Source of the DNA: an uncultured cyanobacterium
GTDB taxonomy: Bacteria; Cyanobacteriota; Cyanobacteriia; Cyanobacteriales; Geitlerinemataceae
Reading direction: 5' to 3'
NCBI GenBank assembly: GCA_937899645.1
Contig: CALCCD010000005.1
Location: 1 to 64,000 of the forward strand
Length of the DNA: 64,000 nt
Every line of letters begins with the position of its first letter. Positions within the stretch are counted from its first letter, which is position 1. A program made the position numbers and the translations under genes. Below are positions 5,162-53,793 of this stretch, one piece after another. The notes under the pieces are model-generated. The model was given only the letters and a program-made list of their open reading frames with translations. It searched no databases and was not told where the DNA came from.

Positions 5162-5556
5162 TGTTGTTGAGTCTCCAGGAATGCTTATTCGTGTGGTTGC
5201 GCGGGGATTGTTAGCGTGTCCGGGTTGCCGGAGTCTGCTCTCTTGGCTCGACGCTCGCCGAGTGGAGCGTATAGAGAACGAACTCAACGAGCGGATACCG
5301 CTTTATGGATGTTCTCCGGGGACGACACAGCCTGACTGCCGAATCTGCGACCATTATAGACAAAAGAAAGCGGCAAATAAATAAAGTTCTTGTAGGGCTA
5401 TGTCTGGTTTGTATAAAGCTTAAATAAAGCAAGTCGAAGTCGATGTGAGTGTTGTTACCAGGGACTCGTAGGGCATACTGAGCATAGGTTCTGGGTAATG
5501 CGATCGGATGATACCGTTGGATGCGATTTCGATCGCAAAAGTCCGAGATCGCGATC
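5162..5556. other. Upstream region of the PEP-CTERM gene
   Basis: About 400 bp without a supported gene. It includes an AT-rich section at about 5370-5435, unlike the GC-rich surroundings, which is the likely promoter zone of the minus-strand PEP-CTERM gene. I cannot define boxes with confidence. Confidence 0.4.
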
Positions 5557-5597
5557 GTAAAAGCCCCGAATTCTAAGCAAGAATTCGGGGCTTTTAC
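5557..5597 (-). terminator. Terminator of acs
   Basis: A perfect 17-bp inverted repeat (GTAAAAGCCCCGAATTC and its complement) around a 7-nt loop, about 90 bp downstream of the acs stop codon. The outer arms give A- and T-runs on either strand, so it could work in both directions. Its position past acs suggests that it ends the acs transcript. Confidence 0.85.
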
Positions 5598-5689
5598 GGG
5601 GTTTGTTCGTGCGATCGCTTGCGTGATTTTAGAGCTGACACTCTTTTATACGTAAAGTTACGGGAGCGAACTCGCGAACGTTTGCGTGT

Positions 5690-7660
5690 CTACGCGCCGC
5701 CACGCAGTTTGTCGAGGACGCTGCGATCTTGCAAGGTCGAGGTGTCGCCTGCAATTTCTTGGCCGGAGGCGAGGTTACGCAGCAGGCGGCGCATGATTTT
5801 GCCCGATCGCGTTTTTGGCAAATCGTCGGCGAAGCGGAACTCGTCGGGACGGGCGATCGCGCCGATCTCTTTGGTGACGTGGCCTTTCAGCTCTTTCGCC
5901 AAGTCGTCTCCCCCTTCAAAGCCACCGTCGAGAATCACGAAGGCCACGACTGCCTCGCCTTTGAGATCGTCGGGTTTGCCCACAACCGCAGCTTCAGCAA
6001 CGGCGGGGTGCGAGACCAGCGCCGATTCGATTTCCATGGTGCCGAGGCGGTGACCGGAGACGTTGATCACGTCATCGACGCGACCCATCACCCAGAAGTA
6101 GCCGTCTTTGTCTTTGCGCGCGCCGTCACCTGCGAAGTACATGTAGTTGCCGTCTTTCGGCTGGATGTGCTCCCAGTAGGTGCGGCGGAAGCGATCGAAA
6201 TTGCCGTAGACCGTACGCATCATGCTCGGCCAGGGGTACTTGACGACTAGGTAGCCACCTTCATCAGCTGCGGCTGGGTTGCCGTCAAGATCGACGATTT
6301 CGGCGAGGATTCCGGGAAAGGGCTTGGTTGCCGAGCCCGGTTTGGTCGGCGTCGCGCCAGGAAGCGGCGTCAGCATAAAGCCGCCGGTTTCGGTTTGCCA
6401 CCAGGTGTCGATAATCGGGCAGCGCTCCTTTCCGATGACGGTGTGATACCACATCCAGGCTTCGGGGTTGATCGGTTCGCCGACGGTTCCCAGCAAGCGC
6501 AGCGATGAGAGGTCGCGGGCATTTGGTAGGTCGTCGCCCATTTTGATAAAGGCACGGATTGCGGTCGGGGCGGTGTAAAAAATCGTGACGCCGTATTTTT
6601 CAACCACGTCCCAGAAGCAGCCGGGATTCGAGGGGCGCGGTACGCCTTCGTACATCAGCGAGGTCGCGCCGTTGGAGAGAGGGCCGTAGACGATGTAGCT
6701 GTGGCCGGTGATCCAGCCCACGTCGGCGGTACACCAATACACGTCGGTTTCCTTAAGGTCGAACGTCCATTTGGTCGTGACGTGGGTGTAGAGGTTGTAG
6801 CCGCCGGTGGTGTGTACGACGCCTTTGGGTTTGCCCGTCGAGCCGCTGGTGTAGAGGACGAAGAGCATGTCTTCGCTGTCCATCGGTTCGGGCGGGCAGT
6901 CGGCGGAGGCGGCGTCAACGAGGTCGTGCCACCAAACGTCGCGGCCTTCGGCCATGTTGATGTCTTGGCCGGTTCGCTTCAGAACCAGGACGTTGGTGAC
7001 GCTGGGGGCGGCGTTGTCGGCGAGGGCTGCATCGACTGCCGATTTCAGGGGAATGGTTTTGTCTTTGCGGTAGCCACCGTCGGCGGTAATGACGAGCTTG
7101 GCTTCACCGTCGTTGAGGCGATCGCGCAGAGCTTCGGCGCTGAAGCCTCCAAAGACGACGCTGTGAACTGCACCGATGCGCGCGCAGGCCAGCATCGCGA
7201 TCGCCGCTTCCGGAACCATCGGCATATAAACTCCGACGCGATCGCCTTTTTTGACGCCCATCGCCTTAATCGCGTTCGCGGCTTTGCAGACTTCGCGATG
7301 GAGCTGAGCGTAGGTGTAGGTGCGCGAGTCGCCGGGCTCGCCTTCCCAGATAATGGCGGCTTTGTTTTTGCGGGCGGTGGTGAGGTGGCGATCGAGGCAG
7401 TTGTAGGTGATGTTAATTTTGCCGCCGTCGAACCACTTCGCGACCGGGGGCTGCCAGTCGAGGACGGTGTGCCATTTCTCGAACCAGTGCAGTTCTGATT
7501 CGGCCAGCTCTGCCCAGAATTTGGCGGGGTCGGCGGCGGCGCGATCGTACAGCTCCTGGTACTTGTCCATGCTGCCGATCGTGGCATCGCTGGCGAAAGC
7601 CTCGGGCGGCGCGAAGGTGCGATTTTCGTTCAGGACGGATTCGATCGTCGGTTGGGTCAT
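5690..7660 (-). CDS. acs: Acetyl-CoA synthetase (AMP-forming)
   Basis: It activates acetate to acetyl-CoA through an acetyl-adenylate, with ATP converted to AMP and pyrophosphate. The 656-residue protein has the full Acs layout: an N-terminal ACAS segment ([17 protein letters not shown]), the adenylate-forming P-loop [11 protein letters not shown] around residue 270, the acetate-pocket region WWQTETGG, and the C-terminal [11 protein letters not shown], whose Lys is the catalytic and acetylation-regulated residue in known enzymes. The frame is open to 7729; the ATG at 7660 ([10 protein letters not shown]) matches the usual length, and the upstream 23 residues look non-coding. It stands alone, with a strong terminator downstream at 5557-5597. 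In cyanobacteria it allows acetate use and recycling. Confidence 0.96.
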
Positions 7661-42208: not shown

Positions 42209-42524
42209 AGTTCCTACCACCAGGGATCGCAAAGGCCAAGTCGAACCTTCTTGACAAACGACTCGGGTTGCACGTGATAACTTTCCATACGCGATCGCTC
42301 GCCCGAATCCGGAACGGAGCCCGAAGAAGCCGCCGCGATCGCCAGCTTCGGTAAAGCTTCGGCCATTCGTGCGGGAGCCCACCGAAACAAGCGGCGCGGA
42401 ATGGGGCGAGGCCGGAGCGAATTCGCTATTGTTCAGAGCAAGGCGTCGCGCGAAGGTGGCGATCGCATCTCGACGACCGCACGCTCGCGCGCCCCATAAC
42501 CACATTCATTCCCCCACAGCACCT
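42209..42524. other. Divergent intergenic region
   Basis: About 316 bp between the large TPR gene (minus) and the small membrane protein gene (plus). It must hold both promoters. I see no defendable boxes and no additional gene. Confidence 0.4.
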
Positions 42525-43094
42525 ATGGAACGAGCGGATTTGCTGGAACGGGCGCGCCAGGGCGACCCAGGCGCGATCGCGGCGATTCTCAACCAGCAGT
42601 TGAAGTACCAAGCGATCGAGTGCCGCGCCACGGTGGTCGATCGCCTGCTGCATCTGGTGTTCCGGGCGGAAGACACCACGCCCGATCGCAGCGAACTCCT
42701 CGACTTCGTCCGCGCCAAGCTCATGAACCTCGATATCGAGAACCTGGCGCGCGTCCGCCTCTACGGGCTCGACCCCGGCGCGGAGAGCGAGCCGCAAAGC
42801 CTGCCCGAGGCCGCGGTCTGGACGCACGAGTTCGCGCTCGCCGTGGGGAGCTACTCGCAGCTCATCGCAGCGCGGGCGAGCGAGATGAGTGACGCGGGCG
42901 AGGTTGCGGGGAGCGCGAGTTCTGACGGTTCGGGCGCGGTCGCGGGGGGCGTGCGCCGGACGAAGAAGCAGCCGACGCCGCTGTCTCTGGCGATCGTGGC
43001 GATCGCGCTCGGTCTGGTGGTCTTTTCGGGCTATCGGATCGCCTCCCGCAACGCTGAGCCGTCGCCGCCCCAGGCCGCTCCTGCCGCGCCCTAG
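42525..43094 (+). CDS. Small tail-anchored protein of unknown function
   Basis: A 189-residue protein. The N-terminal 45 residues (ERADLLERARQGDPGAIAA and ILNQQLKYQAIEC) resemble a short module found at the N-terminus of several cyanobacterial membrane proteins. The middle is helical and acidic, followed by a Gly/Ser-rich spacer, a transmembrane helix near residues 150-172 (LSLAIVAIALGLVVFSGY) and a Pro/Ala-rich end. There is no catalytic motif. The frame is open from 42369, but the ATG at 42525 opens the recognised module. It reads into the symporter cluster 247 bp downstream; whether it belongs to that unit is unknown. Confidence 0.7.
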   Translation: MERADLLERARQGDPGAIAAILNQQLKYQAIECRATVVDRLLHLVFRAEDTTPDRSELLDFVRAKLMNLDIENLARVRLYGLDPGAESEPQSLPEAAVWTHEFALAVGSYSQLIAARASEMSDAGEVAGSASSDGSGAVAGGVRRTKKQPTPLSLAIVAIALGLVVFSGYRIASRNAEPSPPQAAPAAP

Positions 43095-43341
43095 TTCGCG
43101 CGTCGCCCGCCCTTTACGCCCATCGCTGCAGCCCGCGACACTCGCGACAACGTCCGGCGCGGAAATCTGGCGAAAGAACTCCGGCGATCGCAGCGCCCCG
43201 CCCTGTGAGAAGGTTTGGCGTAGGTCTTTGGCGTGGACTCTTGGCGTAAGCCCTCGGAGTTCGGCGAGATCGACACGCGAGGTCGAGACAAACGGCCGAG
43301 CGCGCCACGCCTTCAGACTGGGGTGAATCCGTCCGCGATCG

Positions 43342-44664
43342 ATGCTGCAACGTCTCAAAGCGCTCAAAACAGTTAACTGGTTCGACGTTTTTAAATCGCC
43401 GCCGATGCTGCTGGTCAGCCTCGGGCTCGGGCTCGCCTTTGGGGCGCTGCTTCCGGGGTCGATCGAGCCGCTCTCGGCGATCGGCAACGCCTACCTGTCG
43501 GCGCTCCAGCTCTGCGCGCTGCCGATTATGACCACGGGCATCATCGCCGGGATCTATCGCCTCGTCAAAAGCCACCACTCTAAAGAATTCGTCGTGCGGC
43601 TGGTGGGGCTGGTGATGGTGGGGTTCGCGATTTGCAACAGCGTCGCGATCGCGATCGGCTGGGTGATGCAGAGCGGTCGCTTCGACGCCAGCACCCTGGA
43701 AGCGCTGGGCACGGAGGTGAATAAATTTGGCATCGACGCCGAGATCTATCGGACGCTGCCGCCGCCGCCGCCGGAGTTGCGGCTCGGGCTCAATACCCTG
43801 GCCGACAGCCTGATTAGCGACAATATCTTTGCCGCCTTGGTCGACAATCAAACTCTGGCCGTGTTGGTGTTCGCGATCGTCCTGGGGGCAGCACTGGGCC
43901 TCGCGCCAACGACGAAGGTGAGCGATCGCCTGGTGTCGAGCTGCGATCTGATTTTCAACGTATTTTGCGGGATCGCCGACTTTGCCGTGGCCTGCTTGCC
44001 CCTCGGGCTGATCGGCCTGTTCGCCGAGCAGTTCGCGGCCACGGGCGGCGGCATCCTGCGGCTGATGCTTGGTTTTGTGCTGATGGCCGACGCCAGCCTG
44101 CTGGTGCTGTATTTCCTCGCGGCGGCGATCGTCTGGTGGCAGGCGCGGCGTCCGGGTCTAAAGCGGATGGTGGCTAGCGCGAAGGACTCGACGATTTTGG
44201 CGCTGAGCACGTCCAGCAGCCTGGCGACGCTGCCCTACGCGCTGCGGATGATGCGGCGGCTGCGGTTTAACGCCGAGGAGGTGAATTCGCTGCTGCCGAT
44301 CGATATCATCACGTTTCGCTACGGCACGTCGTTTTATTTCGCCTTCGCGACGATTTTCGTAATGACGCTCTACCGCGAGCCGTTTGGCATCAACGAGTTC
44401 GTCACGATTTCCCTCGGCTGCGTGCTGGCGTCGCTGGCCTCGATCGGCGCGGCGGGCATCGCGGCGCTGGGCTGCATCGAGATCGTCACCAGCCCGCTGG
44501 GGCTACCGGTCGGGGCGGTGCTGCTGATTTTCGTGGCGATCGACCCGCTGGTGAACCCGTTCCGGGCTTTGGTGAATATCTACGCCGCCACTGCCGTGAC
44601 CGCGCTGGTCGCGGAAAATTCGCGATCGCCTCGAGACCGCCCACCCGACCGTCCCCCTGACTGA
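43342..44664 (+). CDS. DAACS-type symporter, divergent (first of pair)
   Basis: A 440-residue membrane protein of the dicarboxylate/amino acid:cation symporter family (GltP/GltPh fold). Family marks are the hairpin-1 serine motif STSSSLATLPYAL near residue 290 and the TM8 segment IDPLVNPFRALVNIY. The TM7 motif NMDGT of typical members is FRYGT here, and the TM8 positions equal to GltPh Asp394, Thr398 and Asp405 read Asn, Ala and Ala, while the Arg397 and Asn401 equivalents are kept. Thus the usual Na+-site aspartates are missing, and substrate and coupling probably differ. It is followed by a solute-binding protein and a second symporter of the same type on the same strand. Confidence 0.85.
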   Translation: MLQRLKALKTVNWFDVFKSPPMLLVSLGLGLAFGALLPGSIEPLSAIGNAYLSALQLCALPIMTTGIIAGIYRLVKSHHSKEFVVRLVGLVMVGFAICNSVAIAIGWVMQSGRFDASTLEALGTEVNKFGIDAEIYRTLPPPPPELRLGLNTLADSLISDNIFAALVDNQTLAVLVFAIVLGAALGLAPTTKVSDRLVSSCDLIFNVFCGIADFAVACLPLGLIGLFAEQFAATGGGILRLMLGFVLMADASLLVLYFLAAAIVWWQARRPGLKRMVASAKDSTILALSTSSSLATLPYALRMMRRLRFNAEEVNSLLPIDIITFRYGTSFYFAFATIFVMTLYREPFGINEFVTISLGCVLASLASIGAAGIAALGCIEIVTSPLGLPVGAVLLIFVAIDPLVNPFRALVNIYAATAVTALVAENSRSPRDRPPDRPPD

Positions 44665-44798
44665 GCGCGGTCGCACCGGCAACTGAAATCGATTTTCTAC
44701 GGATACGGCCTAGAATTCGATGAAGGCATTGATAGTAAGCCGATCGGCGCGCGTCCGTTCGTGCATCGCCGCTTTCACACCTTTCGCGAGACCGTCCC

Positions 44799-45800
44799 AT
44801 GAGCCGAGCTGCTTTTTCCCGCCGCTGCGATCGCGGAACACGACGATCGCGTGTCGGTTACGCCGACGTTTGCCCGACCCGCCCGGTCGGTTCGATCGGC
44901 CTGACTCGCTTGATTTTGGCCCTGTGCTGCGCTCTGGCGATCGCGCTGAGCGCCGCACCCGCCGCGATCGCCCAGCCCTTCGATCCGCCGTACGACGAAC
45001 TCGTTGAAGAAGAAACCCTCGAAGCCGCGCCCGCAACCGGCATCGATGCGATCGTCGAGCGTGGCGTGCTGCGCGTCGGCATGCCGAAAAACGACAACTT
45101 TCCCTTCTACGGTCTCGACGACAGCGGCGAGATGGAAGGGCTCGATTCAGACTTTGCGATCGGACTGGCGGGCGTGCTGGGCGTCGATCTCGAATACGTT
45201 CGCGACTACGACAATCACAACGCCGTGATCGCCGCCGTCGCCGATGGCGAGGTGGACTGCGGCATCGCCAAATTTTCACGCACGCCCAAGCGCGGCATGA
45301 AGGTCACCTTCTCGCAGCCGTACCTGAAGTTTCGGCAGGCGCTGCTGGTCAACCAGCGGGCGCTCGTCCAGTACGAAGCCAAAGGACTCGACCCCTCGCG
45401 CGTCTTCGACAACGAGCTAGAGGACACGATCGCCGTTTTGGGCGGCACGTCCTATGTGTCGTTTGCCAAGCAGCTTTTCCCAAAGGCCGAGCTGCTCGAG
45501 CTCGACACCTGGGATGAAGTGGTCGCCGCCGTGATCGATCGCGAGGCGCTGGCCGCCTTCCGCGACGAGGTCGAGGTGCGCTCGATCGCCCTGAACGCTC
45601 CGGAGCTGGCCTTCCAGCTAAAAAGCGTCCTGATCGCCGACTCCAACGACGGCAAAGGCGTCGCCGTGGCGCGCGACAACCCGCTGCTCAAAGAAGTCGC
45701 CAACCTCTATATCGATAACTTCGCTCGCCCCGTCGAGGCCGACGCGGTTCTGGAACGGATCGCCGCCGCCCTCGACTCGGAAACGGAAACCGCCGAATAG
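44799..45800 (+). CDS. Periplasmic solute-binding protein, family 3
   Basis: A 333-residue exported binding protein. Residues 36-59 form the hydrophobic core and cleavage region of a signal peptide (LILALCCALAIALSAAPAAIA), after a basic 35-residue extension. The mature part has the family-3 pattern: GVLRVGMPKNDNFPFYGLDD, EGLDSDFAIGLAGVLGVDLEYV, VADGEVDCGIAKFS, and the FSQPYLKFRQALLVN strand after the substrate-binding Arg (RTPKR). This fold binds amino acids or related small acids. It lies 134 bp after one DAACS-type symporter and 123 bp before another, and no ABC permease or ATPase is nearby. The family usually serves ABC importers, so its partner here is probably the symporters. Confidence 0.88.
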   Translation: MSRAAFSRRCDRGTRRSRVGYADVCPTRPVGSIGLTRLILALCCALAIALSAAPAAIAQPFDPPYDELVEEETLEAAPATGIDAIVERGVLRVGMPKNDNFPFYGLDDSGEMEGLDSDFAIGLAGVLGVDLEYVRDYDNHNAVIAAVADGEVDCGIAKFSRTPKRGMKVTFSQPYLKFRQALLVNQRALVQYEAKGLDPSRVFDNELEDTIAVLGGTSYVSFAKQLFPKAELLELDTWDEVVAAVIDREALAAFRDEVEVRSIALNAPELAFQLKSVLIADSNDGKGVAVARDNPLLKEVANLYIDNFARPVEADAVLERIAAALDSETETAE

Positions 45801-45923
45801 GCCCCCGATCGCCGCCAATCTGGCCGACGATCCGCCCCCCGCCTCGCCGACCTGCGCGCCACGAACCGCTGCGATTCGGCCGTTCGCGTCCGCCCACCTT
45901 CGATCGCCTCGCACCGAAGTTTT

Positions 45924-47285
45924 ATGTCTACTCCCGACAAGCCCAACCAGAAGCCCAACCAGAAAAATATCTGGATCGCCCGCCTGAAGTCGCCGCAGTG
46001 CATCTTGCTCGGTGTCGTGCTCGGCGGTCTGATCGGTGCTTTCGTGCCTGTCCTCGTGCCGCCGATGGCCTGGATCGGTAACGCTTACCTCTCGTTCCTG
46101 AAGCTCTGCGCGTTGCCGATTATGCTCTCGGCGATCGTCGCCGGAACTTATAGACTGCTGGGGAATCCAGGCTCGAAACAGATTATCTCCCGCCTGCTGG
46201 TGGCGGTGTTCTCCGGGTTCTTGCTCTGCAACCTGGTGGCGATCGGGGTCGGCTGGATCGCCCAGGGCGGTCAAATCGATCCGAAAACGCTGGCGTCCCT
46301 CGGTGCGGAGGTCAACAAAACCGGCATCGACTTCAAGCTTTACGTATTCGACGCGGCTCCGCCGATCGACGATCTCGAACTCGGCCTGAGCGCCTTGCTC
46401 GACAACCTGGTGAGCGACAACATCTTCTCGTCGCTGTCCAATGGCCGCACCCTGGAGGTGCTGACCTTCTCGATCGTCTTCGGCATCGCTGTCGGCCTCG
46501 TCCCCGACTCGGGCATCCGCACGCAATTTATCGCCGTGCTCGATCTGATTTTCCAGACCTTTAACGGCATCGTGAAATCGTCGCTGGCGCTGCTGCCCTT
46601 TGCGCTGCTCGGCCTGATCGGCGAGCGGGTCGCCTCCACGGGTTTCGGCACCTTGCAGCTCATGCTGAAGTTCGTGATCGTCGCCAACGTCTGTTTTGCC
46701 GCCGCGTATCTGCTCAGCACCGCGATCGTCTGGACGCGCGCCAAGCGCCCGAAGCTCCACCATATGCTGGGCTACATGAAGGAGACGACGATCCTGGCGG
46801 TAACGACCTCGAACAGCTTTGCCTGTCTGCCGTCGGCGCTGACGATGATGAAGCGCCTGGGCTTTAACAAAGAAAAAGTCAACTCGCTGCTGCCAATTAA
46901 CCTGATTACCTTCCGCTACGGCACGTCGGTGTACTTCGTGCTGGCAATGATGTTCGTGCTTAACGTTTACGAAGAGCCGATGAGCGTCAGCGTGTTCTTT
47001 ACGATCCTGCTGGGTTGCGTGTTCGCCTCGCTCTCGTCTCTGGGGCTGGTGGGCATCGCGACGCTGTCGTCGATCGAGGTGGTGGCGCGTCCGCTGGGCG
47101 TCCCGGTCGAGGCGGTGCTGCTGATTTTCGTGGCGATCGACCCGCTGGTAAACCCACTGCGCGCCCTGCTCAACGTCTACGCCTCAATGATGGTGACATC
47201 GCTGGTGACGGACAACCGCAACCGTTCGCCGGAGCCGGTTCCCCAGCTCGCCCCCCTCGAAGCGACTTCTGGCAGCGAAGCCTAG
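45924..47285 (+). CDS. DAACS-type symporter, divergent (second of pair)
   Basis: A 453-residue paralogue of the symporter at 43342-44664, with the same changes to the family motifs. Hairpin 1 reads TTSNSFACLPSAL, TM7 ITFRYGTSVYF, and TM8 IDPLVNPLRALLNVYAS. The GltPh Asp312 and Asp405 positions are Tyr and Ser; Arg397 and Asn401 are kept. It starts 123 bp after the binding protein gene and ends the cluster; REP-like hairpins follow. The two carriers may work separately on related substrates or form a hetero-oligomer; the sequence does not say. Confidence 0.86.
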   Translation: MSTPDKPNQKPNQKNIWIARLKSPQCILLGVVLGGLIGAFVPVLVPPMAWIGNAYLSFLKLCALPIMLSAIVAGTYRLLGNPGSKQIISRLLVAVFSGFLLCNLVAIGVGWIAQGGQIDPKTLASLGAEVNKTGIDFKLYVFDAAPPIDDLELGLSALLDNLVSDNIFSSLSNGRTLEVLTFSIVFGIAVGLVPDSGIRTQFIAVLDLIFQTFNGIVKSSLALLPFALLGLIGERVASTGFGTLQLMLKFVIVANVCFAAAYLLSTAIVWTRAKRPKLHHMLGYMKETTILAVTTSNSFACLPSALTMMKRLGFNKEKVNSLLPINLITFRYGTSVYFVLAMMFVLNVYEEPMSVSVFFTILLGCVFASLSSLGLVGIATLSSIEVVARPLGVPVEAVLLIFVAIDPLVNPLRALLNVYASMMVTSLVTDNRNRSPEPVPQLAPLEATSGSEA

Positions 47286-47322
47286 GATTCAGTCGTCCTC
47301 TCGCACGATTCAAAAATTCGGA

Positions 47323-47389
47323 GCAGCCGGGACGGCTGCGCTACGGGAAATTCGGATTTTTTACCTCGTAGCGCTGGCGTCTCGCCAGC
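47323..47389. repeat. Two REP-like hairpins after the second symporter
   Basis: GCAGCCG-GGA-CGGCTGC at 47323-47339 and GCTGGCG-TCT-CGCCAGC at 47373-47389 are perfect 7-bp stems with three-base loops, 33 bp apart. They resemble the palindromes after ilvC at 40074-40117 in stem and loop design. They may stabilise or end the symporter transcript. Confidence 0.75.
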
Positions 47390-47642
47390 TTCAGTAACGT
47401 TTCAGGGATTCGTGCAAGATGTTTAGCTTGCCCGCGAGACAGCCCCAACAGGAAGAAATTCCGGAGAAACGGCAAGCTCGATCGCAAAGATTCACGACAA
47501 ACTTGGGTTCGACAGACACCGCGCTCGCGCCCGTGTTAGCAACCATTACGATTTCGCCCTTTCGATCGGAACTCGCTGGATCGCGCTGGAGATATTCATG
47601 GCGGGCGATACTAGACGAGCCGGACGCGATCGCGCGTCTTTA

Positions 47643-47702
47643 GACTTTTCCAGGTCGGATTTTTCTAGTTCGGATTTTTCCGGCTCAGACGTTTCCGGGT
47701 GC
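47643..47702. repeat. Four degenerate 15-bp tandem units
   Basis: Units begin at 47643, 47658, 47673 and 47688 and follow the pattern GA(C/T)TTTTCC plus a variable end. In the plus frame they would read DFSRS, DFSSS, DFSGS and DVSGC, reminiscent of pentapeptide repeats, but the surrounding frame is not a convincing gene. Confidence 0.6.
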
Positions 47703-47835: not shown

Positions 47836-50800
47836 ATGATGAAATTACGATACGTTCTGGCGGTGGCCCTGCCGCTTGCGGGTTGGAGCAGCAGCGCGAT
47901 CGCGCAGGTCGTCCCCGAGGGCGAAACAACGGTAACGCCGAGCGGCGATCGCCTAGAAATTACCGGCGGGCAAACCTCCACCGACGGCGCAAACCTGTTC
48001 CACGGGTTCCAGGACTTCAACCTCGACGCCAGCCAGATCGCCGATTTCATCACTGCGCCGGACACTCGCAACGTGCTGACGCGGATTTCGGGCGGCTCGC
48101 CCTCGACGATCGACGGCCTGCTGCAAGTTTCCGGCAGCGACGCCAGCCTCTACCTGCTCAACCCGGCGGGCATCGTTTTCGGCGAAAGCGCGCGGCTGAA
48201 CGTGGCCGGTGACTTTTTCGCCTCCACCGCCACGGGACTGAGCTTTACTGGGGGCGACTGGGAGACGATCGCCACCGAAGCGGCGAACCTAACCGGCGAC
48301 CCGGTGGCGTTCCAGTTCGCCATCGACGACGCAGGCGCGATCGTTAACGCCGGAACCCTGGACGTCGAGACGGGTCGGCAGATCGGCGCGATTGGCGGCG
48401 AGGTCGTCAATACCGGCACGATGTCGGCTCCGGGCGGCGCGATCGTGCTGGTCTCCGTAGACGAAGCGGGCTGGGTGTCGCTGAGCCAGCCGGGCAGCGT
48501 GCTGAACCTGAGCTGGAATCCGGCAACGTTCGACGCGCCGCTCGATGCCGCCGCCGCCGACTTGACCGAGCTAATCTCTGGCGGTGCGGCCAGCTCCGCC
48601 AGCCAGCTTCGGGTCAACGCTGACGGCACGGTCAGTCTGACTGGCAGCCTGACGGGTCGCGAAGCCGCGATCGCGCCGCTGGCAGGCACGACGATCGCGT
48701 CGGGGACGCTGGACGCGGCGGGCGAGTTTGGCGGGTTTGGCGGCACGGTCTACGTCCTGGGCGATCGCGTGGCCAGCCTGGGCGCGACGATCGATGCGTC
48801 GGGAAGTTACGGCGGCGGCGCAATCGCGATCGGTGGCGATCGCCAGGGGCTCGGCACGCTACCCAACGCCGAATTTACGTTTATCGACGAGGCTTCGCGA
48901 CTCGTGGCGGACGCGCAGCTCGCGGGCAACGGCGGCGAGATTATCGCCTTCGCCAGCGACACCGCCCGGATCGCCGGAACCCTGTCGGCCACCGGTGGCA
49001 TTATCGGCGGCGACGGCGGCTTTATCGAAACCAGCGGCCTGAGATCGTTCCAGATCGACACGCTCCCCGACGTCAGCGCGATCGCCGGAGCGGGCGGCGA
49101 GTGGCTGATCGACCCGTTCGATATCACGATCGTCGCTGGGGGAGGCAACACCAATATCAACGCCGCCACCCCCTTTGAGGCGACTGCCGACCCGGCAACC
49201 CTGGGCGTCGATCTGATTACGGCAGGGCTGCAAAGTGGCGACGTGACGGTCTCCACCGGCGCGGGCGCGACGAGTAACTCCATAACCCTCGACACCGACC
49301 TGGACTTCGACGGCGCGAACGGCAACCAGCTGACGCTACTTGCCACCGGCAGCGTTATCCTCAACGGCAAAATCACCGACGACACCCCCGCCACGCCCGA
49401 CGCCCTCGACGTGACCATTACCGGCGCAAACGGCGGAATGGGCGAAGTGCAGCTCGGCGAGATCGTAACCGGCGGCGGCGACCTGACCGTCACGACTACC
49501 TCCGCCACAGATGGGATTATCACCACGGACTTTATCGAAACCGGTGGTGGCGCGATTACCTTCAGCGGCACGAGCACCGGAACCGGGAGCGGCGTCATCA
49601 TTGCGACCCCGATCGACTCTGACGGCGGCGCGATCGCGATCGAGGGACGCAGCGGCTTTCTCGGCGTCAACCTCAATGGCGGCTCGCTGAACTCCAACGG
49701 CGGCGCGATAACGCTGCGCGGCACGGGCCTGAACGGCGCGAACCCCGGACTAGACCTTAACGGGACGATTAGCGCGGGCAGCGGCAACGTGTTGCTCGAG
49801 TCCGACACCCTCGATATCGCGCAGTCGCTGTCGGGGACGGGCACGCTGACGATCGAGCCGGAAACCACTGCGCCCTTCTCGCTCAACACCGGCGACGACC
49901 TGGTGGCGGGAACGAGCCTCGCCAACATCGGCGCGGACTTTTCGCTGGTGACGATCGGCTCTGATACCGCTGGGGATATCACGATCGGCACCGCCGGTAT
50001 CGCGAACTTCACCTCGCCTCTGACCCTGATTACGGGCGGCAACCTCAATCTCAATACTCTGACGCTGAACGATAACCCACTGACGGTGAACGCCGGTGGT
50101 GATGTCAACGTCGCCAGCGGTGCGAACTTTGAAGGAGACGTGACGATCGTTACCGACGACATCACGATTTTGGGGCCGTTGACAGTGGACGGCGACCTGG
50201 CGATCGTGCCGCGCGACCCGACGACGACGATCGGCCTCGGCTTCGACGGCAACACGACGCCCGCACCGGGCAACCTAATCCTCGACGATGTGGCGCTGAT
50301 TTCCCACATCACCATGCCGATCGCCCCAGACGGCACGCGCCGCACCCTGTCGATTGGCGATCCGGTCAGCGGCACGGGCAACATTACGATCCAGTCCTTG
50401 GACAATGCCCGCAGCCTCGCCGGTCAGGACTTCTTTCTCTCTGAAAAGGACTACAACCTCCAGGTCTTCGGCGGCGATATCGACCTCCAGTTTCCCGTCA
50501 CCCTCTATGAATTCGACGCAGCCACGCCGGGAACGCCCGTCCAGTCGTTCGGCCTCTTTAGCCAAGGCGCGATCGCCGGGAACACCGTCGCGCTGACCGG
50601 CGGCCAGTGGGTGCTCGATGGCGTCGGCGGGGTCGGCATCGACGCCGTACCCGTCTCCTTTAACGATGCGGACGTGGCGATCGTCAATCAAGGCGGCGAC
50701 GTGTTCGCGGAGTTCGGCGCAAACAGTAGCCTCAGCGCGATCGCATTGGGCGGCACGACCTACGGCGGCATTCAAACCGACGGCAGCATCGAAATCCGGG

Positions 50801-53793
50801 GCACAGATCCGCTCGCGATGGGGGCGATCGCCCTAACCGCCAACACCGGCAAAATCGAGATCGATCCGCCGCTGCAAATCGATGATTCGGTGACGATGAC
50901 CGCTCCGGTCGAAATCGAACTCAACGGCGCGATCTCCGGCGCGGGGTCGCTGACGGCCAGCTCCGCCGGAGATATCGGCCTGCCCGCGATCGGCTTGGCT
51001 GCGGCCCCCTTCGGTGCGACTTCGGCGACCTCCACCGACGGCACGATCGACCTAGACGGCGATATTTACGCCGGAAACGGCCTGACGCTCGCCGCCGACG
51101 ACATCGAGATCGACGACACCGTCCGCCTCGACACCAGCGCCAACAACAGCGACCTCGACCTCAGCGACGCGGCGATCGTCGGGGGCGGCTCGCTAACCTT
51201 CGACGCCGGAACCGGGCGCGTCGCGCTGGCCGATGTCGGCCTGGAAGACGAGCGGTTTGGCAGTTTGACCTTCGAGGCCCTTTCGGAGCTCGACCTCAAC
51301 GGCGCGATTTTCCTCGACAGCGACTTCGACGCCGCCACCCAGACCGCGAACCTGTTTGGCGACGAGGTTTCGATTTTCACCAACGGCGCGATCGACCTGA
51401 GTACGGCCACCGTTTCCGGCACGAGCCACTTCCTGCTCGCAGGCGATACCGTCCGCCTCGGCGAACTGACGGCAGCCACCCTAGGCAGCCTCGAGGTCAC
51501 CGCCCAGAACGACATCGAAGTCGGAAACGCCACGACGACCGGCGATATTACGCTAACCACCAGCGCGGGCGACATCGTCGCAGGCGATCTGACTACTGGC
51601 GCGGGGGGCGATCCGATCGACGGCGCGCCGATCCTGCTGGTCAGCAGCGCCGGGGAAATCACCACCGGCAACCTGACCAGCACCGGCATTAACGGTGGCG
51701 ATATCACCGTCCAGGCCAAGCTGGCGATTACCGCCGGACAGATCGACAGCAGCGGCACTACCGGCAACGGCGGCGATGTGCTGCTCGACCCGATCGGCGA
51801 TATCGAAATCGGATTCGTCAACGCCGAGGGCGGCGCTGAGGGCGATGGCGGCGATATTACCGCCGTGACCACCGGTGGTTTCTTCCGTGCGACGCAGACC
51901 TTTGAGGCGCGAGACGGCAGCACGGCCAGCCTCTCCTCGGCGGGCGGCGACGGCGGCACGATCTCGATTTCCCACGCGGGCGGCGACGGCGAAGCGCCGA
52001 TCGCCCCCTTCGAGATTGGCAGCGCCGCCACCAACGGCACGGCGGGCACGGTCACCACCGGCAACGATCGCCTCGAGGTCGGCGAATCGTTCCCGCGATC
52101 GTTCTCGCGCGGCAATATCACCCTCGGCACCGATGATGGCGTCGATCCAGACCCGGATCCGCCCGGGGAGCCCCCCACCGAAACGCCGGTTGAAACGCCC
52201 GTTGAGACACCAGTGGAAACACCTGTTGAAACTCCCGTTGAGACACCAGTGGAAACGCCGGTTGAAACACCCGTTGAAACGCCCGTCGAGACACCGGTTG
52301 AAACCCCTGCCGAGCCGACACCGACCGAACCGACCTCGTCCACACCCGACAGCGAAACGGCCCGCGCCCTCGAGCAAAGCGATCGCGAGTCCGAATCGGA
52401 GCGCGCCGTCAGCTCGATCGGCAACCTCGAGATCGACACGATCGTCAGCTCGATCGAGCGGAACTTCAGCCAGGAATACCTCCGCTACCTTTCCACCTCC
52501 TCCAACGGTCGCTGGCAGTACCGACCCAGCAGCAGCAGCCTCGCTTACTCCACTGAGGGTGGCGACATCGAAATCTTCGGGCTCGACGCCATCCGCCGCG
52601 AGCTGCGGCAAGGCGATGACGAGACCGGCACGAACACCGCGTTGGTTTACATCACCTTCGGGCGGCGGACGATCGGCGAAGGTGCGGCGCTAGTCTGCCC
52701 GACGCCCGAGAACTTCACCGAAGAGGCCGCGCCCCAAACGCCCGCCTGCGATCGTCGCCCCGACGACCCGGTCGAAATCGTCGTCGTCACCGGAGACGAT
52801 GACCCCATGCGTTGGCAGGTGGATGGAGCCGATCGCGAGACGGTCAAGCGCGCGATCGACGAACTCCTCGTCGCAACGATCAACCCGCGCCTGCGCCGCA
52901 CCGACCGCTACCTCGTCCACTCCCAGGAGCTCTACGATCTGCTGTTCGAGCCGATCGCCCCAACCCTAGAAGCGCGCGGCATCGACAATCTGCTCTTTGT
53001 CCCCGACGCCCACATCCGATCGCTGCCCGTCGCGGCGCTCCATAGCGGCGATCGCTTCTTGATCGAGGACTACAGCATGGCCGTGATGCCCAGCTTCAGC
53101 CTGACGCGACCGCGCTATGCCAACCTCCGCAACCGCCCAGTGCTAGCGATGGGCGCATCGGAGTTCGAGTCGCAGCCCGCCCTCGCCGCCGTGCCGATCG
53201 AGCTGGCGAGCATCACCCGCGACGGCACGGACGGCGACATTTTCCTCAACGCCGATTTCACCCGCGACAACCTCTCCGGCCAGCGCACCGACTACCCGAT
53301 CGTCCACCTGGCGACCCACGCCGACTTCCTCCCCGGCAACCCCGATGACTCGTTTATTCAGCTCTGGGACGAGCGTCTGAGCTTGCCGCAGGTCGAAAAC
53401 CTCGACTGGACTGACCCGCGCGTGCAGCTCCTCGTCCTCAGCGCCTGCCGCACCGCGATTGGCAACGACGAAGCCGAGCTGGGCTTTGCGGGGCTGAGCC
53501 TCCAGGCCGGGGTCGGCTCGGCGCTGGCCAGCCTCTGGTACAGCAGCGACCTGGGCACGCTGGCGCTAATGGACTCGTTCTACAACGCTCTCGACACCGC
53601 CCCGATCCGCGCTGCCGCGCTCCAGCAGGCGCAGCTCGCCCTCCTACGCGGCGAAGTGTTCGCCGAATCCGGCCGGATGACGGGCATTGCCGGAGACATC
53701 GAGCTGAACGAGGCGCTGGACTTCAGCTACCGATCGGAGTTTTCGCACCCGTACTACTGGGCCGCATTTACCGCGATCGGCAATCCCTGGTAG
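47836..53793 (+). CDS. Giant filamentous-haemagglutinin-like protein with CHAT domain
   Basis: A 1985-residue exported protein. A signal peptide (residues 1-23) precedes a two-partner-secretion (TPS/FhaB N-terminal) domain at about 25-270, with ANLFHGFQDFNLD and LYLLNPAGIVFGESARLNV. A long beta-helix of Gly/Asp/Thr-rich repeats runs to about 1430. Next come a low-complexity linker with ten VETP units, a charged helical region, and a CHAT domain at about 1690-1985. His1828 (ATHAD) and Cys1871 (LSACRT) form the likely catalytic dyad. Proteins of this type are thought to be secreted by an FhaC-like outer membrane partner, which is not seen in this window. The peptidase would be surface-exposed or in the periplasm; its target is unknown. 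Confidence 0.93.
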   Translation: MMKLRYVLAVALPLAGWSSSAIAQVVPEGETTVTPSGDRLEITGGQTSTDGANLFHGFQDFNLDASQIADFITAPDTRNVLTRISGGSPSTIDGLLQVSGSDASLYLLNPAGIVFGESARLNVAGDFFASTATGLSFTGGDWETIATEAANLTGDPVAFQFAIDDAGAIVNAGTLDVETGRQIGAIGGEVVNTGTMSAPGGAIVLVSVDEAGWVSLSQPGSVLNLSWNPATFDAPLDAAAADLTELISGGAASSASQLRVNADGTVSLTGSLTGREAAIAPLAGTTIASGTLDAAGEFGGFGGTVYVLGDRVASLGATIDASGSYGGGAIAIGGDRQGLGTLPNAEFTFIDEASRLVADAQLAGNGGEIIAFASDTARIAGTLSATGGIIGGDGGFIETSGLRSFQIDTLPDVSAIAGAGGEWLIDPFDITIVAGGGNTNINAATPFEATADPATLGVDLITAGLQSGDVTVSTGAGATSNSITLDTDLDFDGANGNQLTLLATGSVILNGKITDDTPATPDALDVTITGANGGMGEVQLGEIVTGGGDLTVTTTSATDGIITTDFIETGGGAITFSGTSTGTGSGVIIATPIDSDGGAIAIEGRSGFLGVNLNGGSLNSNGGAITLRGTGLNGANPGLDLNGTISAGSGNVLLESDTLDIAQSLSGTGTLTIEPETTAPFSLNTGDDLVAGTSLANIGADFSLVTIGSDTAGDITIGTAGIANFTSPLTLITGGNLNLNTLTLNDNPLTVNAGGDVNVASGANFEGDVTIVTDDITILGPLTVDGDLAIVPRDPTTTIGLGFDGNTTPAPGNLILDDVALISHITMPIAPDGTRRTLSIGDPVSGTGNITIQSLDNARSLAGQDFFLSEKDYNLQVFGGDIDLQFPVTLYEFDAATPGTPVQSFGLFSQGAIAGNTVALTGGQWVLDGVGGVGIDAVPVSFNDADVAIVNQGGDVFAEFGANSSLSAIALGGTTYGGIQTDGSIEIRGTDPLAMGAIALTANTGKIEIDPPLQIDDSVTMTAPVEIELNGAISGAGSLTASSAGDIGLPAIGLAAAPFGATSATSTDGTIDLDGDIYAGNGLTLAADDIEIDDTVRLDTSANNSDLDLSDAAIVGGGSLTFDAGTGRVALADVGLEDERFGSLTFEALSELDLNGAIFLDSDFDAATQTANLFGDEVSIFTNGAIDLSTATVSGTSHFLLAGDTVRLGELTAATLGSLEVTAQNDIEVGNATTTGDITLTTSAGDIVAGDLTTGAGGDPIDGAPILLVSSAGEITTGNLTSTGINGGDITVQAKLAITAGQIDSSGTTGNGGDVLLDPIGDIEIGFVNAEGGAEGDGGDITAVTTGGFFRATQTFEARDGSTASLSSAGGDGGTISISHAGGDGEAPIAPFEIGSAATNGTAGTVTTGNDRLEVGESFPRSFSRGNITLGTDDGVDPDPDPPGEPPTETPVETPVETPVETPVETPVETPVETPVETPVETPVETPVETPAEPTPTEPTSSTPDSETARALEQSDRESESERAVSSIGNLEIDTIVSSIERNFSQEYLRYLSTSSNGRWQYRPSSSSLAYSTEGGDIEIFGLDAIRRELRQGDDETGTNTALVYITFGRRTIGEGAALVCPTPENFTEEAAPQTPACDRRPDDPVEIVVVTGDDDPMRWQVDGADRETVKRAIDELLVATINPRLRRTDRYLVHSQELYDLLFEPIAPTLEARGIDNLLFVPDAHIRSLPVAALHSGDRFLIEDYSMAVMPSFSLTRPRYANLRNRPVLAMGASEFESQPALAAVPIELASITRDGTDGDIFLNADFTRDNLSGQRTDYPIVHLATHADFLPGNPDDSFIQLWDERLSLPQVENLDWTDPRVQLLVLSACRTAIGNDEAELGFAGLSLQAGVGSALASLWYSSDLGTLALMDSFYNALDTAPIRAAALQQAQLALLRGEVFAESGRMTGIAGDIELNEALDFSYRSEFSHPYYWAAFTAIGNPW
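52189..52308 (+). repeat. Ten-copy 12-bp coding repeat (VETP)
   Basis: Ten tandem 12-bp units, each encoding Val-Glu-Thr-Pro, with wobble differences between copies; a TETP unit just before is an eleventh, diverged copy. They link the beta-helix to the CHAT part of the giant protein and are probably extended and flexible. Confidence 0.95.

Follow-up and report, generated by a model that had tools for sequence, protein, structure and literature searches.

A conserved cyanobacterial pair of a family-3 solute-binding protein and an SLC1-fold carrier that looks like a receptor-dependent secondary transporter

Solute-binding proteins (SBPs) of family 3 usually serve ABC importers. Secondary transporters that are fed by an SBP are found in the TRAP and TTT families, and an elevator mechanism operates in TRAP. 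According to passages of the TAXI-GltS report, TRAP and TT transporters were the only ones known to use soluble SBPs before that system was described in Bordetella pertussis in 2025 (PMC12344293). In TAXI-GltS, as these passages describe it, the SBP gene adjoins the carrier gene and is translationally coupled to it, a TRAP or ABC membrane partner is absent, the substrate is an acidic amino acid and the carrier is predicted to be an elevator. The same passages propose that some aspect of the elevator mechanism permits an SBP partner, and that further classes would allow this to be tested (PMC12344293). Here we analysed a 64,000-nucleotide stretch of DNA from an uncultured cyanobacterium of the Geitlerinemataceae (contig CALCCD010000005.1, positions 1 to 64,000; hereafter the window), in which a family-3 SBP gene lies between the genes of two paralogous SDF/DAACS carriers with the SLC1 fold (Table 1). 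The pairing of such an SBP with such a carrier is conserved, and by its genome context and its residues the pair resembles SBP-dependent secondary transport.

Among the described systems that we found, TAXI-GltS comes closest, and the adjoining SBP and carrier genes, the missing TRAP or ABC membrane partner, the acidic amino acid and the predicted elevator carrier are the points of likeness. It combines a TAXI-type SBP with an ESS/GltS carrier, whereas here a family-3 SBP stands beside an SDF/DAACS carrier. Membership of the window proteins in TRAP or TAXI-GltS was considered and rejected; they match SBP_bac_3-type and SDF-type models. TRAP and TTT transporters belong to other membrane and SBP families, and have a small membrane subunit, unlike the present loci. 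With GltPh, GltTk, GltP, DctA and the EAATs the carriers share the SDF domain, the HP1 serine motif, R397 and D390; they differ from all of these in the missing D312 and D405, a lengthened 3-4 loop and the SBP partner (GltPh numbering and residue roles follow the relevant sections of PMC12668577). The PAAT importers (e.g. Anabaena N-II/Bgt) have an SBP_bac_3 receptor with the same ligand residues, but no ABC permease of that type is among those listed at the present loci. A described system of the SBP-DAACS kind was not found: the pair is absent from the titles and abstract beginnings that searches of open-licence PMC papers listed, the term counts and passages of one review contain no mention of DctA or DAACS (PMC8276074), and the passages on the mutant of the Anabaena DAACS gene all0342 draw no link to an SBP (PMC4500139).

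Two divergent DAACS paralogues flanking a family-3 SBP on one strand had been read from the sequence alone, and the coordinates and Pfam matches agree with that reading. The gaps are 134 bp between carrier 1 and the SBP and 123 bp between the SBP and carrier 2. The carriers are 51% identical, no further SDF match was found in the window genome, and their SDF domains score above the curated cut-off. They score 573 and 580 bits with the paired-carrier profile described below, and remain far below the cut-offs of the NCBIfam DctA, GltP and SstT models (at best 88 bits for DctA, where 513 are required, and 60 bits for GltP, where 638 are). The closest relative found for carrier 1 is the carrier of locus L003 (62% identity), which is also followed by an SBP, 64-65% identical to that of the window.

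The pair was searched for across cyanobacteria. A two-row carrier profile (A1) run over 386 genomes of the phylum found five other genomes at 268-329 bits, with the remainder at 93 bits or less. An SBP relative adjoins the carrier in three of these five, in three further genomes (72-93 bits) and on the contig of a metagenome-assembled genome (L003, RDYZ01000168.1). At 72-93 bits, the divergent paired carriers were indistinguishable from other SDF proteins with profile A1, whereas an 11-row profile (A4) set them apart. With up to four candidates scored per genome, this profile picked out 61 carriers at 249-586 bits, spread over 55 of 388 Cyanobacteriia genomes (the window's included), and the next listed match scored 181 bits. 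The 58 loci of this group outside the window, together with G255 from the two-row search and L003, form a set of 60 related loci, which we compared with 39 control loci chosen by hand, without a random draw, from SDF matches of 181 bits or less. A same-strand SBP of one type adjoins the carrier in 54 of the 60 related loci (55 of 61 carriers) and in none of the controls (Fisher p 1.5e-21, a loose value given that the loci are related and the controls chosen). The SBP gene is in this sense constantly linked to a carrier and not to ABC components, as in SBP-dependent secondary transporters. The carrier lies downstream of the SBP in 53 pairs, with a gap of at most 111 bp in 50 of them, five at -4 bp; the three largest gaps, with the start set at the longest frame, are 290, 329 and 865 bp. 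Two of the six loci that have no adjoining SBP lie at contig ends, and the other four belong to genomes of a single genus (g62). At one contig end (G624) an SBP fragment (64 bits) lies beside the carrier. The other contig-end genome (G504) has a paired-type SBP (293 bits; the match crosses one TAG) 121 bp from the end of another contig, and in three of the four g62 genomes a paired-type SBP (287-290 bits) is found away from the carrier.

The trio of the window is not peculiar to this genome, a point on which the sequence-only reading had staked its proposal. The carrier-SBP-carrier order recurs in G390 (L113) and probably also in L003, where 56 bases of frame at the contig end encode 19 residues that can be aligned with the first residues of carrier 2 (alignment score 30; one shuffle in 1000 scored as much); the second L003 carrier appears to be cut by the contig end. 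What is conserved as a unit is the SBP-carrier pair, not the trio. Genomes outside Cyanobacteria were reached via plasmid records only. Two tblastn searches hit 240 and 393 records, of which 30 each were listed, and seven records were opened, four with the pair and three without it. The L005 paired carrier matched plasmids of Gemmobacter aquarius, two Paraburkholderia and one Cupriavidus at 209-222 bits, while the other 26 of the best 30 among the 393 records scored 111 bits or less. All four of these alpha- and betaproteobacterial loci carry, on one strand, an SBP, a carrier, a racemase and a second carrier, the last scoring 210-216 bits in three loci and 115 bits in L168. The remaining three plasmid records opened have SDF loci (L172-L174) that score 177-194 bits with the profile and hold no SBP. 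Double carriers occur in the window, in G390 and in these proteobacterial plasmid loci. In a tree of 57 of the 116 carriers, thinned by hand, a single 100/100 branch separates the paired from the control carriers. Within the paired set, carrier 1 and the L003 carrier form a group (100/99), and carrier 2 branches off before those two part.

The aligned residues of the carriers provide insights into their coupling. In the sections of PMC12668577 on which we draw, Na+-coupled DAACS proteins have [ST]92-93, N310, [MS]311, [DE]312 and [DE]405, and H+-coupled ones of the GltP/GltTBc type have a hydrophobic residue at 92, L311, N405 and a putative E279. In the alignment of the window carriers, 310-312 is FRY, 405 is Ala or Ser, 92-93 read as C-N and 279 is Leu or Phe, so that the residues of both known coupling modes are missing. 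In both carriers D312 is replaced by Tyr, D394 by Asn and T398 by Ala; R397 and N401 are kept. We aligned 71 paired carriers (two from the window, 61 from the 60 loci and eight from the plasmids) with 45 controls. Not one of the 71 has an acidic residue at 312 or at 405; R397 is present in 66, D394 in 46 (Asn in 15), T398 in 51 (Ala in 13) and N401 in nine. Of the controls, 40 have D312, nine have D405, and all 45 have N401 and D394. Because none of the 71 aligned carriers has either of the Na+-site acids, their cation coupling is likely altered, as the sequence-only reading had suspected, and transport would not be Na+-coupled in the manner of GltPh. The loss of D312 and D405 that it had pointed out is general, but the accompanying D394N and T398A replacements are not. 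One subgroup (L117-L120) has NPP at 310-312 and Ile or Leu in place of R397, and Tyr255 with Leu158 occurs in exactly the four SBPs of this subgroup, which suggests a joint change of carrier and receptor.

The receptor matches SBP_bac_3 and keeps the ligand Arg and Asp, and its hydrophobic N-terminal segment was read by eye as an export signal. Its relatives in the PDB are mostly amino-acid-binding proteins. Paired SBPs share an RDxxE signature, and Arg165 and Asp256 align with residues of the solved relatives; we take the former to be the family-3 ligand of the alpha-carboxylate and the latter that of the alpha-amino group. An Asp/Glu-type amino-acid racemase is encoded in 36 of the 59 fetched cyanobacterial loci (none in L003) and in all four plasmid loci, compared with none of the 39 controls. 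It is on the strand of the SBP in 38 of the 40 and convergent in the other two (L065 and L122). Seven racemases were classed, and all pass TIGR00035 (amino acid racemase). The two proteobacterial ones among them (213 and 195) also pass the cut-off of 190 for CuyB, which interconverts L- and D-cysteate according to passages of PMC11382572. An acidic amino acid is the likeliest substrate, because R397, the residue expected to meet an acidic side chain and present in both window carriers, is kept in 66 of 71 carriers, together with the SBP ligand residues and the racemases. The non-amino anion that had been suggested from the window alone was rejected: Arg165 and Asp256 are present in 59 of 59 paired SBPs, and a racemase in 40 of 64 loci.

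We consider it probable that the pair is a receptor-dependent secondary importer of acidic amino acids (Asp, Glu or cysteate-like) whose coupling is not GltPh-like. With the pairing, its conservation, the residues, the racemase linkage in relatives and the absence of TIGR01726 from the window genome observed, we infer docking, hand-off, substrate class and energy source as follows. The periplasmic SBP would catch an alpha-amino acid that is most likely acidic (aspartate, glutamate or a sulfonate analogue such as cysteate) and possibly in the D form. The SBP would dock on the SLC1-fold elevator carrier and release the substrate into the transport domain of the latter; there Arg397 may bind the acidic side chain. 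Transport would not be coupled to Na+ in the way of GltPh, and the energy would have to come from another driving ion or from substrate exchange. In the window, a single receptor may feed two paralogous carriers. A candidate for the docking element is the loop between transmembrane helices 3 and 4, which has 42-55 residues in the paired carriers (median 48) against a median of 30 in the controls (n=45), although seven of the 45 controls also have loops of at least 44 residues. Gly127 is present in this loop in 71 of 71 paired carriers and Asp136 in 68 (carrier 2 numbering). By GltPh topology the loop presumably lies on the periplasmic side, and it may be the landing site of the receptor. A bolder version, which is plausible but which we hold tentatively, is a further SBP-dependent class on the SLC1 fold in which receptor docking at this loop replaces Na+ binding in producing the high-affinity state; a carrier that has no Na+-site acids would then be able to import acidic amino acids (D- or sulfo-) that are scarce, and the racemase would feed them into metabolism. 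The secondary carrier with a periplasmic receptor put forward by the sequence-only reading has, as an inference, gained from the conserved pair, the plasmid loci, the close genes and the lack of TIGR01726 in the window genome.

SLC1 proteins are among the best-studied elevators, with many structures, and their pairing with a large family of amino-acid SBPs offers a test of the elevator proposal. Natural SLC1 carriers that have no Na+-site acids are also relevant to how Na+ coupling is lost, a subject of the sections consulted in PMC12668577.

Several observations weigh against a receptor-dependent importer of acidic amino acids or narrow its basis. The window locus has no racemase nearby, with one PF01177 gene in the genome, so the clue to its substrate derives from relatives. 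No racemase is seen in 24 of the 64 loci, and the five cyanobacterial racemases classed fall under the CuyB cut-off (158-186 against 190). Because L117-L120 keep the SBP without R397, substrates must vary within the group. Arg311 was rejected as a substitute for a Na+ ion or a mark of the paired carriers, since 35 of the 45 controls have it too. The second L168 carrier scores below some controls and its alignment columns are unsure, and the tree program warned of long branches. Single-protein models from alignments of three and two rows reached a mean predicted local distance difference test score (pLDDT) of only 40.5 and 40.7. Fusions of SBP and carrier, reported for TAXI-GltS in the passages of PMC12344293, were not seen in the loci here. 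Permeases of TIGR01726, which we take to be the family that normally partners family-3 SBPs, occur somewhere in 50 of the 55 carrier genomes, and there an ABC importer might use the SBP in trans.

One alternative is that the SBP acts, once it has bound its ligand, as a sensor or gate controlling the carrier or else a dCache-HAMP receptor nearby, and that the carrier works alone. A gene of the dCache-HAMP type is present in 29 of 64 loci, 20 of them having it on the strand of the carrier and at most 172 bp downstream (domains checked in four proteins), and one SBP (L122) bears a peptidoglycan-binding domain, as if fixed in place. However, the dCache-HAMP-type gene is not among the clustered neighbours in the other 35 loci, and the constant pair is SBP and carrier. 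We regard this alternative as unlikely.

The proteins at issue there can be described further. The dCache-HAMP-type protein has about 500 residues and is encoded next to the carrier in L075, L082, L097, L100 and others. Those of L075, L076 and L082 were scanned and no output domain was found, whereas the relative in L122 has an adenylate/guanylate cyclase domain at its end. The L122 SBP (5296-6528, minus strand) carries its PG_binding_1 domain at the N-terminus, suggesting a wall-anchored receptor, and the L065 SBP is similar by sequence.

It is quite unlikely, in our view, that the SBP works in trans with an ABC amino-acid importer and that the carriers are independent, sharing a cluster with it only since they transport the same amino acid. 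The usual role of family-3 SBPs and the wide occurrence of TIGR01726 permeases in the carrier genomes speak for such a partner. In the window genome, however, TIGR01726 has no match at E <= 0.001 (11 of 14 control genomes were positive), and it has none in the four g62 genomes or in G582; all of these genomes except G453, which is 83% complete, have a paired-type SBP. Where TIGR01726 permeases do occur, the nearest to a carrier among the matches listed is about 13 kb away (G342). An SBP that does lie beside such permeases (G624, contig C160) scores 57 bits with the paired-SBP profile, against at least 222 bits for the 54 SBPs of paired loci. The absence of an ABC permease nearby, read earlier from the window, extends to the whole of its contig (C5, 158.8 kb): all 21 BPD_transp_1 matches in the genome lie on other contigs. 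The other three SBP_bac_3 matches of the window genome are an SBP-channel-like fusion, an SBP with no visible transport gene in its 3.7-kb locus and one match below the cut-off. Some family-3 SBP genes that have no ABC permease may have carrier partners.

Uncoupled exchange or export by the carriers, with the SBP recapturing leaked amino acid, would suit the loss of D312 and D405 in all 71 carriers, which may be unable to concentrate substrate without these acids, and the missing H+-coupling signature in the window. It would also suit the raised amino-acid uptake upon inactivation of all0342, a possible member of this subfamily, for which the authors considered export in the passages of PMC4500139. 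This alternative is improbable in that SBPs are normally import components and the known SBP-dependent secondary systems import.

Table 1. Positions in the window of the carrier and receptor genes and of the elements discussed in the text.
Feature	Coordinates	Strand	Basis
Carrier 1, 440 aa, SDF/DAACS	43342..44664	+	Pfam SDF 164 bits (cut-off 27.9)
Carrier 1, lengthened 3-4 loop with LGxxVNxxxxDxE-type motif, candidate receptor-docking element	43678..43821	+	48 residues
Carrier 1, FRY replacing GltPh NMD 310-312	44314..44322	+	alignment
Carrier 1, TM8 stretch, GltPh 390-405: D390, N394, R397, A398, N401, A405	44542..44589	+	alignment
Family-3 SBP, 333 aa	44799..45800	+	Pfam SBP_bac_3 61 bits (cut-off 26.4)
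SBP Arg165	45291..45293	+	invariant in 59/59 paired SBPs; aligns with conserved Arg of solved relatives
SBP Arg255-Asp256-x-x-Glu259 signature	45561..45575	+	Arg255 55/59, Asp256 59/59, Glu259 59/59
Carrier 2, 453 aa, carrier 1 paralogue	45924..47285	+	Pfam SDF 160 bits (cut-off 27.9)
Carrier 2, lengthened 3-4 loop, candidate receptor-docking element	46272..46418	+	49 residues
Carrier 2, FRY replacing GltPh NMD 310-312	46911..46919	+	alignment
Carrier 2, TM8 stretch, GltPh 390-405: D390, N394, R397, A398, N401, S405	47139..47186	+	alignment

The SBP-channel-like fusion of the window genome (contig C48; L163, 1489-3579, minus strand) is a protein of 696 residues in which a pore-like segment containing a TVGYG filter splits a family-3 SBP. 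By eye, its N-terminus looks like a second binding-protein-like part, possibly of the betaine/choline type, and the whole looks like a potassium channel fusion of the glutamate-receptor type (GluR0-like).

Around the trio, a promoter and terminator scan of 43100-47700 gave nothing that exceeded shuffled sequences. The order upstream of carrier 1 (42369-43094 and a TPR gene) looks conserved by eye in L003, which has a similar TPR-type gene and a small gene. Further along, the product of an open reading frame for 1985 residues (47836-53793) begins, as judged by eye, like a filamentous haemagglutinin, contains a stretch of ETPV repeats and ends like a CHAT protease.

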